This document shows, piece by piece, positions 12,862 through 24,516 of a DNA stretch of 24,544 bases. The notes under the pieces are model-generated. The model was not told the origin of the DNA and did no database searches. It saw only the letters and a list, made by a program, of their open reading frames with translations. The DNA comes from Haplosporangium gracile (Eukaryota > Mortierellomycota > Mortierellomycetes > Mortierellales > Mortierellaceae): assembly GCA_015499985.1 (NCBI GenBank), contig JAAAUF010000638.1:1-24544 (forward strand), read 5' to 3'. The position numbers and the translations under genes were made by a program. Each line of letters opens with the position of its first letter. The stretch's first letter is position 1.

Positions 12862-14030
12862 ATGGCTCAACCCGTCCGCTCCGTCGACCGTCGCTTCACC
12901 ACAACTGCATTCGAGTTCCCTGGTTATTTCATTGCTCAGGCCCATGGAGTCGTTCGCGGGTAAAAACACATTCGCGCTCATCCAGGACCAACAACCGCCT
13001 TGGCAACATACTCACACCCTCTGGACCGCGCACTAATCACGATTTCGCTCTCTCTTCGTGCTCCACTCTTCCTTTGACCACCGTAGTATCACAGTGAGAA
13101 ACCCTAACGTAAGTTTAGCTCTTCTCTCACACGAGGACACAAACGTCCCAGCATACGAATTTGTTCTTACTCCAACTGCTATAACCCTGCCTGACGCTTC
13201 AGTTGCATTATTTTCGCATTGACACTATAGGCTGGCAAAGCATTCGTTGGTGCCTTTGCCTCACTTGCCGGAGGAGAGAGCTCGACTTACATCGAGATGG
13301 CCGAGAAGGCTCGTGAGAGGGCATTCCTGAGAATGCTTGAGCACGCTGCCGCTGCTGGTGGAAACGGTAAGTTGCTGTTCTTTCTCTCTCGCTGTTATGC
13401 CATGCAGGATAAGGTTTCGACTGCTCATTTTGTCCCAAAAAAGAAAGAAAGTGTCGCTCACTAAAAAATAACCAACTCCAACCTTGCAACTTACTTCGTT
13501 CTTTAGCCGTCATTGGTGTTGAGTTTACTGGTCAAGAGATTATTCAGGTACATTGTTCATCCGTTTTGTTTTGCACCTGTGCAGCAATGCTTTCTTCGCG
13601 ATCGTTGTTCAATTGATGCTGTTATTTCACCTCAGCCTAACCGTCGCTTTGCTTTGCTTTGCTTTGCTTTGCTTTGTGACATAGGGGTAAATACATTTGC
13701 TGTGGATATTTTAGGCTGGAATAGAAACGAAACACGACTACAGGACACGACCAAAAGTACAATGGCGCACTTCAAGGATAAAAGACGTATTGACATTTTC
13801 GTTCAATTTATATTCATAGAATGACTGAAGTTATGGCGTACGGAACTGCCGTTACCTTGGTTCCCCTCCAGCAGCAGGCCCCCCAACAGCCCGTCATGCA
13901 GCAGCAGCAGCAGCAGCAGCAGCACGTTATGCAGCAATCTCCCCAGCAGCCCATGTACAGCCCCGTTAGCAGCCCCTATGGTCAGCCTCAGCATCAGCAT
14001 TTCAGCCCTGCTCTCCCTCCCAAGAACTAA
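12862..14030 (+). CDS. UPF0145/YbjQ-family protein with polyglutamine tail
   Basis: Exons: 12862-12959, 13087-13108, 13231-13366, 13507-13547, 13685-13686 and 13820-14030, giving about 169 residues. The core matches the UPF0145 (DUF74, YbjQ) family, annotated as putative heavy-metal-binding and known as small pentameric proteins mainly in prokaryotes. Motifs are FPGYFIAQAHGVVRG, AFASLAGGESSTYIEMAEKA, RERAFLRMLEHAAAAGGNAV, IGVEFTGQEIIQ and GMTEVMAYGTAV. After the core, about 60 residues are Gln/Pro-rich with eight consecutive Gln. Exon 2 is only 22 nt. The exon carrying GG (13685-13686) is inferred: exon 4 ends in phase 0 and the last exon needs two more bases to read MTEVMAYG in frame. The biological role of this family in fungi is unknown. 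Confidence 0.8.
13646..13675. repeat. (GCTTT)6 pentanucleotide repeat inside an intron
   Basis: Six perfect GCTTT units, followed by GTGACATAG. They form the polypyrimidine tract directly before the acceptor of the proposed 2-nt exon. A branch-point-like CTAAC lies just upstream at 13637-13641. Confidence 0.85.
13685..13686 (+). other. Proposed 2-nucleotide microexon (GG)
   Basis: The sequence around it is CATAG|GG|GTAAAT: an acceptor with a strong pyrimidine tract, two bases, then a good donor. The upstream intron is 137 nt (13548-13684) and the downstream one 133 nt (13687-13819), matching the other introns of this gene (127, 122, 140). GG plus the A at 13820 makes a Gly codon, giving IIQ-G-MTEVMAYGTAV, the family's usual spacing and residue. 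Without it the frame meets a stop three codons into the last exon. Confidence 0.65.
13899..13922 (+). repeat. (CAG)8 encoding polyglutamine
   Basis: Eight pure CAG codons in the last exon of the UPF0145 gene. Further CAG-rich codons flank it, so the tract is likely length-variable between strains. Confidence 0.9.
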
Positions 14031-21946: not shown

Positions 21947-24516
21947 GTAAGAGAGCGACAAAGTAACGAGTGAAAAAAAGGGATGATGTTGATGATGGCT
22001 CATAAACAACAAGGGAGAACAGAACCCAAATGACGAAAAAAGAAAATTATGGGGAAGGCGTGTGTGTGTATGTAAGTGTGTGATGCGGTGGGTAAGTGGT
22101 TACCCGACGCTTTTCAAGAATGTGGTGACACTTTTGTCAGTCATCATTGACAGGGAGAACCAAACACAACAACAGAACAGGCCGGACAAACAGGGATTAG
22201 AGCGAAAATTTATTTTATTTGGGTGACGAACACGAGGGAAAGGAAGGGGCATGCTCACTTTGGTCTAAACTTATCACTTTAACATAAAGAGAAGTAAAAA
22301 AAAGAGGGTTCATGAGCGACTGGGTCGTCAAGTCAACAACGACTACAACGACAACAAAGGAAAGAAGTATGAGTGAATGTGAAGAGGGAAACGTGGGTTC
22401 TAAAAGAGGTCAACCGGGAGTTTGAACCTAGTCTGCCTCAACAAGCCCTTTTCACACACACACACGTACGTACACAAGAATGGCTGTTAATTGACAGGCA
22501 TTACCCACGGGGTACTGTACTCTCTGGCGATATAATAACCATACAATGAGTGGATGAACGGCCGGCGTGAGCTTTGCCGTTTTATTTTTTCCACATTCCC
22601 CACCCCCAAAAATATACACTCCTCTTCTCTCTCGCACTCCGTGTGCAGACTGTTGGAAATCAAACAATTCGTGCGTTCTGTTGCCATCCTCTGGGAATAT
22701 CGTGCCGAAATATTCTCACGATCGCTCTCTTGTTCTACAAACTCCGGCGGCGTTTTTTTTTCTTTCCTCTGTGCTTAATCCTTTCTATAGTGCTACCCCA
22801 CCTTTTTTCTGCAATCTAATTTTCCGTGGATGTGTTTTCAAATGCTGTCTTTATGACATGACACCACACACTTTTCATGCTTCATCAATTGCAGAAGGGG
22901 AGGGGTCAAAGAGAGAATAAGCATGAATTGAACACATACAGCAAGGAGTAGGAAACAGGGATGGAACGGGCTGAGGCAATCATATCATACTCTTAAGAAG
23001 AAACCTTTTTGATCCTTACTGTTTTTTCATTTTTCGCAATTCTCACACGTAGGTCAAGGCTCCCAGTTTGTTGGGATGGGCAAGGACCTGTACGACACTT
23101 ATTCTGTGGCACGACAAGTTGTTGACGAGGCCGACGACGCATTGGGAGGCACACTGAAACACGTCATGTTTGAAGGATCACAGGAGGACCTCACACGGAC
23201 AGAGAACGCGCAACCAGCCATCTTGACCACATCAATTGCAATGCTAAGAGTCCTTGAAAGCGAACGTGGATTCAAGATTGAAGAGACTTGCAAACATGCA
23301 CTGGGTCACTCGCTGGGAGAGTACTCTGCACTTGTTGCCACCAAGGCGGTCACTTTGCATGACGCTGTCAAACTTGTGGTAAGTATTCTGTTTCAGATGA
23401 TGCATGCGAGAAGGCGTATTTTTTCCTCTTTTTTTTTTTTTATTTGTTTTGTTTTGTTTTGTTCTTATTTTGGAACACATGCGGTAGAAAACTAGGGTTT
23501 CCTTGGCTCACCATCTTCTTTTTATGTCTTGGGCATGTTTTCCTCGTGCTTTTTCTAGCGACTCCGCGGACAGGCAATGACAAAGGCAGTGACAAACAAA
23601 GGAACGACGGCCATGTCTGCCTTAGTGGTGCGTGCCGACAAACTGGAATCTCTAGTGACAGCAATGGATGAGATCAAGGTGTCATTACCGGCTGGCGAGG
23701 TAGCCGAGATTGCCAACATCAACAGCGTAAGGATCACCAACCATTTCGATTTTGCTCTATGTGGAGTGCAGTATTACATCAATTGGAGGGTGTTACTTCG
23801 TGAATGCAGTTCGGAAACTAACTTTTTTGCAACTCAACAAACGGTCTTTTTTACAAATAATAGTCTTTCCAGGTGGTCATCAGTGGAACTGTTCGTGGAG
23901 TTGATCATGCGTCCAGGATGCTACAGGCAAAGAAGATTGCCGCTCGCGCTGTTGATCTTCCTGTCTCGTAAGTGGCCAAGAAGGTGTTTTGAGAACTGTA
24001 CTTGGAAACAGTTGACAGAAGAGGTGTACTGCGGAGCGGGAAAAGCATGTTTACTGACAGGCTTCTATCCCTTTTTATATTGCTGTACATATAGGGCGCC
24101 TTTCCACTGCAGTTTGATGCAGCCGGCGGCGGATGAGATGAAGGTCGCTCTCAAGGATGTGCACTTTCAGAAACCAGTGATCAATGTCATTTCTAATGTC
24201 ACCGCCAAGCCCGTAAGTTCGAGTCAACAGGCTGCAAGCGGGAACGACAATTGGATGTTAGATGTCAATGCGCCTTTTGCAATCATGAAAACATGAGAAA
24301 CTAACCAGATTGTCATTTTTCTCGCGAGAACTTATAGATTACGAGAGTGGAGGATATCTCGGACTTGTTGGTGCGGCAGGTGACAGGAACTGTTCAGTGG
24401 CACACGAGCATAAAATACCTGCACGATCAGGAGAATGTGCACGACTATATCTCGCTGGGACCAGGAAAGGTCTTGGCCAATCTCCTCCGCAAGGAATACC
24501 CACTGGACTTTGTGAA
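21194..24516 (+). CDS. MCT1: Malonyl-CoA:ACP transacylase, mitochondrial type, cut by the window edge
   Basis: Seven exons visible: 21194-21547, 21711-21756, 23053-23378, 23559-23726, 23864-23967, 24095-24212 and 24338-24516, about 431 residues; an eighth exon must lie outside (donor GTAAGT at 24517). The enzyme moves malonyl from CoA to acyl carrier protein for mitochondrial fatty-acid and lipoate synthesis. The first ~118 residues are Ser/Thr/Ala-rich with Arg and few acids, as in a mitochondrial presequence. The FabD/MCT domain follows: WAILFPG|QGSQFVGMGK across the second intron, QPAILTTSIAML, nucleophile GHSLGEY (Ser about 220), RLRGQAM with the substrate Arg, NINSSFQVVISGTVRGV, and APFHC with the catalytic His (about 337). 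Intron 2 is 1296 nt, about ten times the usual. FAS-type megasynthase context is absent, favouring the stand-alone mitochondrial enzyme. Confidence 0.88.
21757..23052 (+). other. 1.3-kb intron 2 of the malonyl transferase gene
   Basis: Donor GTACGA follows the codons for LFPG and acceptor CACACGTAG precedes GTCAAGG, restoring LFPGQGSQF exactly in frame. The interior holds a (TTG)12 repeat (21910-21945), GT-rich stretches near 22060-22085, a short CA run near 22455 and no conserved reading frame on either strand. Confidence 0.7.
21910..21945. repeat. (TTG)12 microsatellite in intron 2 of MCT1
   Basis: Twelve uninterrupted TTG units. It is the longest pure trinucleotide tract in the window and likely polymorphic. 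Confidence 0.9.

Follow-up and report, generated by a model that had tools for sequence, protein, structure and literature searches.

How can the fourth coding exon of the gene described here be joined to its last one, when the last exon is two bases short of the conserved reading frame? The gene lies in the window, by which we mean the whole stretch of 24,544 nucleotides that was analyzed, representing contig C782 of a 37.5-Mb assembly of Haplosporangium gracile (Mortierellaceae). Its product is a UPF0145/YbjQ protein (PF01906), with exon 3 scoring 33.2 bits in a profile search of the genome (cut-off, 23), and has been deposited as BGZ47_009327 (P0001). An earlier note on this DNA had read exon 4 as ending in phase 0 at CAG/gtacat (here and below, slashes in sequences mark splice sites) and the last exon as running from an A at position 13820, with direct joining giving Asn-Asp-stop. 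Re-reading returned the same boundaries, and exon 4 joined straight to the last exon translates as IIQ-ND-stop. The layout of the gene, with the exon that we propose, is collected in Table 1. Its first three introns measure 127, 122, and 140 nt, and exon 2, with 22 nt, is also a microexon. In the surroundings, the open frame at 16109-16576 matches Vps35 (PF03635) and that at 23076-23495 an acyl transferase domain (PF00698), while scanning the window for Rfam families and tRNAs returned no match.

Table 1. Exons and introns of the UPF0145/YbjQ gene, in window coordinates; exon 5 is a prediction.
Feature	Position	Strand	Remarks
Coding exon 1	12862..12959	+	UPF0145/YbjQ gene, MAQPVRSVDRRF...GVVRG; from translation and homologues
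Coding exon 2, 22 nt	13087..13108	+	junctions agree with NCBI model P0001
Coding exon 3	13231..13366	+	
Coding exon 4, 41 nt	13507..13547	+	terminates ATT ATT CAG, phase 0
Intron 4, 137 nt	13548..13684	+	gtacat...catag
Proposed exon 5, GG, two nucleotides	13685..13686	+	the paralogue has this core at L016 1463-1462 (minus strand)
Intron 5, 133 nt	13687..13819	+	gtaaat...catag
32-nt segment, exon in NCBI model (KRNTTTGHDQK)	13725..13756	+	judged to be intron
Last coding exon	13820..14030	+	A/ATGACTGAAG; the A completes GGA (Gly); ends with TAA

The answer that the sequence very strongly suggests is that the 272-nt interval between the two exons holds an exon of only two nucleotides, GG, between two introns that would be spliced sequentially. 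This is the exon that the earlier note had put forward after finding catag/GG/gtaaat and a (GCTTT)6 tract in the interval, with the remark that the introns so created resemble the others of the gene in size (122 to 140 nt). We located both elements, the tract at 13646-13675, and the intron sizes are as given there. Both introns have complete GT and AG ends and branch-point matches. The branch-point consensus is CTAAC; intron 4 carries this motif at 13637-13641, about 45 nt from its 3' end, and intron 5 the weaker match TTGAC at 13790-13794, about 27 nt from its 3' end. In either intron, no other AG lies between the match and the acceptor, and the donor of intron 5, GTAAAT, agrees with GTAAGT in five of six bases. 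Splicing via GG yields a complete protein of 169 residues with IIQ-G-MTEVMAYGTAV at the junction, and the predicted mRNA would read ATT-CAG-GGA-ATG (Ile-Gln-Gly-Met). GG is therefore needed for the reading frame and the conserved protein, and, as expected of an ultra-short microexon, it is flanked directly by canonical AG and GT, both here and in the paralogue described below. That IIQ-G-MTEV is the usual form of UPF0145 proteins, as had been claimed, is borne out by 54 further listed homologues: 48 of them match the junction motif, with Gly (42) or Asn (6) before [MVI][TN]EV, and six have no match.

The same arrangement recurs in the gene of another H. gracile protein from this class, deposited as BGZ47_007254 (P0025) with the junction IIQ-VRDRSK-MTEV; the last exons of this gene lie on contig C556. 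The DNA reads CAG/gtaagag...caatag/GG/gtaagttc...gtaacag/A ATG ACC GAA, with introns of 166 and 129 nt, and splicing via GG gives TGQEIIQ-G-MTEVMAYGTAV. Identity between the two genes amounts to 71% over exon 4 and to 83% over the opening 60 nt of the last exon, whereas the alignment scores of their introns 4 and 5 are on a par with those of shuffled sequences (z = -0.13 and 0.14, respectively). Since the same AG/GG/GT stands in both genes between introns that can no longer be aligned, and next to exons that can, the core seems to have outlasted its surrounding intron sequence. This comparison of DNA covers two genes of one genome, with the C556 gene read in its last exons.

The deposited residues VRDRSK are the product of a donor 17 nt into the intron of the C556 gene. 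This raises the alternative that splicing runs from a donor further downstream, inside intron 4 (GTTTTG at +20 in the window, GTGATA at +17 on C556), directly to the last acceptor and so inserts a few residues. Solutions of this kind exist in frame, and P0025 itself carries the residues of the +17 donor. The donors concerned are poor matches to GTAAGT, however, the residues that they add differ between the paralogues, and the positions that they bypass, namely, the CAG/gtaaga and CAG/gtacat donors and the shared AG/GG/GT core, would be left unexplained; we thus consider such alternative donors highly improbable. An enumeration of single introns points the same way. Donors (GT or GC) were allowed as far as 150 nt beyond exon 4, and AG acceptors in a range reaching from 150 nt upstream of the last exon's start to 60 nt downstream of it. 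Within these limits, 11 solutions are in frame in the window and 3 on C556, and none of them places one residue between IIQ and MTEV.

How readily might the core of the proposed exon arise by chance? In first-order Markov resamples of the window interval (20,000 resamples), YAG/GG/GTRA occurred in a fraction of 0.0007 and YAG/NN/GTRA in 0.025. The corresponding fractions for the C556 interval, 0.0013 and 0.020, provide the fair estimate, since the C556 gene was read only after the motif had been fixed. We also enumerated all middle exons of up to 120 nt with an AG acceptor, the correct phase, and an open frame, lying no closer than 40 nt to either end of the interval. With GT donors, there are two candidates in the window (GG and the 32-nt segment of Table 1) and five on C556; with GC donors allowed as well, there are 5 and 12. 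The candidates other than GG (one and four with GT donors, four and eleven with GC donors included) have no member in common, and GG is the only middle exon among those enumerated that both genes share. Among the GT-donor candidates, it is also the only one that combines a branch-point match with an acceptor at the first AG.

The one GT-donor competitor in the window is the exon of the NCBI model, in which 32 nt replace the Gly by KRNTTTGHDQK. The earlier note had been right that this segment exists and that it would add about ten residues; it had placed the start at about 13735, some 10 nt too far downstream. Several observations speak for this exon: it fits phase and frame, splicing the window with it reproduces P0001 letter for letter, and 9 of its 11 residues are identical in P0006 from L. 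schmuckeri. On the other hand, its acceptor, aatag, has no branch-point match free of an intervening AG, its donor, GTACAA, shares only three of six bases with GTAAGT, and nothing corresponding to it occurs among the candidates on C556. In most other class I models (see below) the insert is a different one or absent, and the PF01906 profile scores P0001, with the insert, at 88.9 bits and P0004 from L. elongata, without it, at 99.1 bits. The further claim that the insert would fall within a conserved strand did not hold up against the predicted structures. AlphaFold models P0004 (mean pLDDT, 82) with the Gly in a tight hairpin turn between strands 86-98 and 101-115, and in its model of P0001 (mean pLDDT, 76.5), the added residues form a loop between the strands, suggesting that the turn could accommodate them. 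The predicted structures therefore carry no power of their own to exclude the insert, and it is the sequence evidence that decides between GG and the 32-nt segment, making it very unlikely that the NCBI model is correct here. Both deposited H. gracile models, BGZ47_009327 and BGZ47_007254, probably misrepresent this junction, each in its own way.

We compared 91 fungal clusters from the listings of two protein searches (the best 120 of 812 and the best 120 of 269 matches). Of these, 67 belong to class I, the class of the window gene and its C556 paralogue, and 23 to class II, and one row, P0079, is a chytrid outgroup. In a tree calculated on the part before the junction (102 columns, 41 open forks), class I, with its 67 rows, is held together with an SH-aLRT value of 99; class II denotes the 23 rows that remain besides the outgroup. 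The proteins of the two classes behave very differently at the junction. Among the class I clusters, 7 of 62 have a single residue there, vs 21 of 23 in class II (Fisher, P = 5.5e-12, a value that overstates the difference, as the clusters are related by descent). The 62 include a partial record that ends before the junction (P0125) and omit two Actinomortierella (P0023 and P0033) and three Calcarisporiella (P0057, P0061, and P0062) rows, each of which has a single Gly; if these are counted, the class I figure becomes 12 of 67.

Several of the other class I models break down at the junction in ways that resemble traces of the same layout. Five models stop right after [QE]-G (P0054, P0055, P0058, P0065, and P0074), which would fit GG/GTAA being read onward as GGG TAA. 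Two continue with G-Y-I (P0042 and P0048), consistent with GG/GTAYAT, and three hold a longer insert with Gln-Gly at its end (P0002, P0003, and P0068), consistent with CAG/GG/. P0060 terminates with N-D, the product to be expected if GG is skipped. A clean single Gly is found in four clusters (P0004, P0012, P0014, and P0019), and P0004 equals the GG product of the window across its first 124 residues. Counting against a GG exon, three models have Arg instead of Gly (P0011, P0017, and P0075); perhaps an acceptor two bases upstream restores the frame there without a 2-nt exon, with Arg encoded as AGA, or these models are wrong. All these species are represented by predicted proteins, from which their splice sites are deduced, whereas conservation at the level of DNA refers to the one paralogue in the same genome. 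Within this scope, a missed GG exon likely explains many of the discordant Mortierellaceae models, all of one conserved family and all at the same junction. Together with its recurrence in the paralogue and its standing as the only phase-compatible option shared among those enumerated, this argues for the GG exon of the earlier note. It would also be conceivable that the gene is decaying and that a productive splice is absent, as the stop after direct joining might indicate. Yet conservation of the protein in numerous species and the recurrence of the core in another gene make decay very unlikely, the least credible of the alternatives weighed here.

The class II genes bear on how a GG exon could have come about. 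Two of them lie on contig C867 of this genome, in tandem and with similar flanks repeated (L006 4000-7160, minus strand), and each has one junction intron, of 109 and 105 nt, ending tag/GAA ATG ACT. The phase-0 intron is thus common to the two classes, whereas a second one, starting after another two bases, has been seen in class I only. We tentatively prefer a gain of this second intron in class I over its loss in class II. Whether intron 5 could be a copy of intron 4 was considered as well; z-scores of 1.96 and 2.33 over shuffles for the two genes are too weak to support a duplication.

As to how the proposed exon would be spliced, introns 4 and 5 would leave one after the other, each recognized as a short intron, because an exon of two bases is too small for the splicing machineries of its two introns to be bound simultaneously. 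Either order of removal would work. Since AG forms the end of exon 4 as well as of intron 4, the context of the next donor, AGGG/GTAAAT, is the same before and after the removal of intron 4. A failed step would lead to a nearly immediate stop, as IIQ-G-stop if intron 5 is kept (the translation of the retained intron) or as IIQ-N-D-stop if GG is skipped, and incomplete splicing would therefore yield no full protein. It is tempting to go further and to speculate that GG is an ancient, obligatory exon and the smallest known in fungi, present in at least two paralogues throughout the Mortierellaceae, spliced in a strictly sequential manner, and serving as a checkpoint of splicing fidelity or as a truncation switch; we regard this wider proposal as tentative and, taken as a whole, somewhat doubtful. 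Phrase searches of open-licence literature found no 2-nt exon in print. If true, a conserved fungal exon of this size would test the spliceosome, beyond plants, on splice sites two bases apart, and the AG/GG/GT layout would provide a sequence signature for finding further ultra-short exons that have been missed.

The closest parallels among known systems are single-nucleotide exons of plants. According to the respective reports, a constitutive 1-nt exon has been proven in APC11 of Arabidopsis (PMC4674806), and another was reported for VPS55, whose paralogues in flowering plants fall into a clade with the exon and a clade without it (PMC8831610). The latter report also describes that a read mapper could not place reads over the 1-nt exon unless the junction was annotated (PMC8831610). 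As described for these exons, GG would be ultra-short, essential for the frame, flanked by complete introns, and missed or replaced in annotations, and its apparent confinement to class I resembles the distribution of the VPS55 exon over paralogue clades. In contrast to them, it has two bases rather than one and belongs to a fungus, and while theirs were shown by RT-PCR (for APC11 also with reporter constructs), GG is predicted from sequence. Very short coding exons are on record for fungi too, as exemplified by the 20-nt microexon of Trichoderma Xlr2, described as glucose-regulated (PMC11121469), and by P450 exons of Phanerochaete as short as 6 bp (PMC1184071). These are three to ten times longer than GG, and inclusion of GG is predicted to be obligatory, whereas that of the Xlr2 exon responds to glucose. 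With stwintrons, as they are described (PMC5639578), the locus shares a fungal host gene and a pair of neighboring introns that would have to be spliced consecutively. However, the splice elements of each intron are complete and uninterrupted by the other, and after the removal of intron 4 the next donor would read GG/GTAAAT, so that two bases stay in the mRNA. A likeness to recursive splicing in its published description (PMC6224609) lies in the fact that removal of intron 4 would bring exon 4 to within two bases of the next donor. Unlike in that system, both introns are short, and the layout in both genes is AG/GG/GT rather than a splice site of zero length, with the two nucleotides kept as coding sequence.
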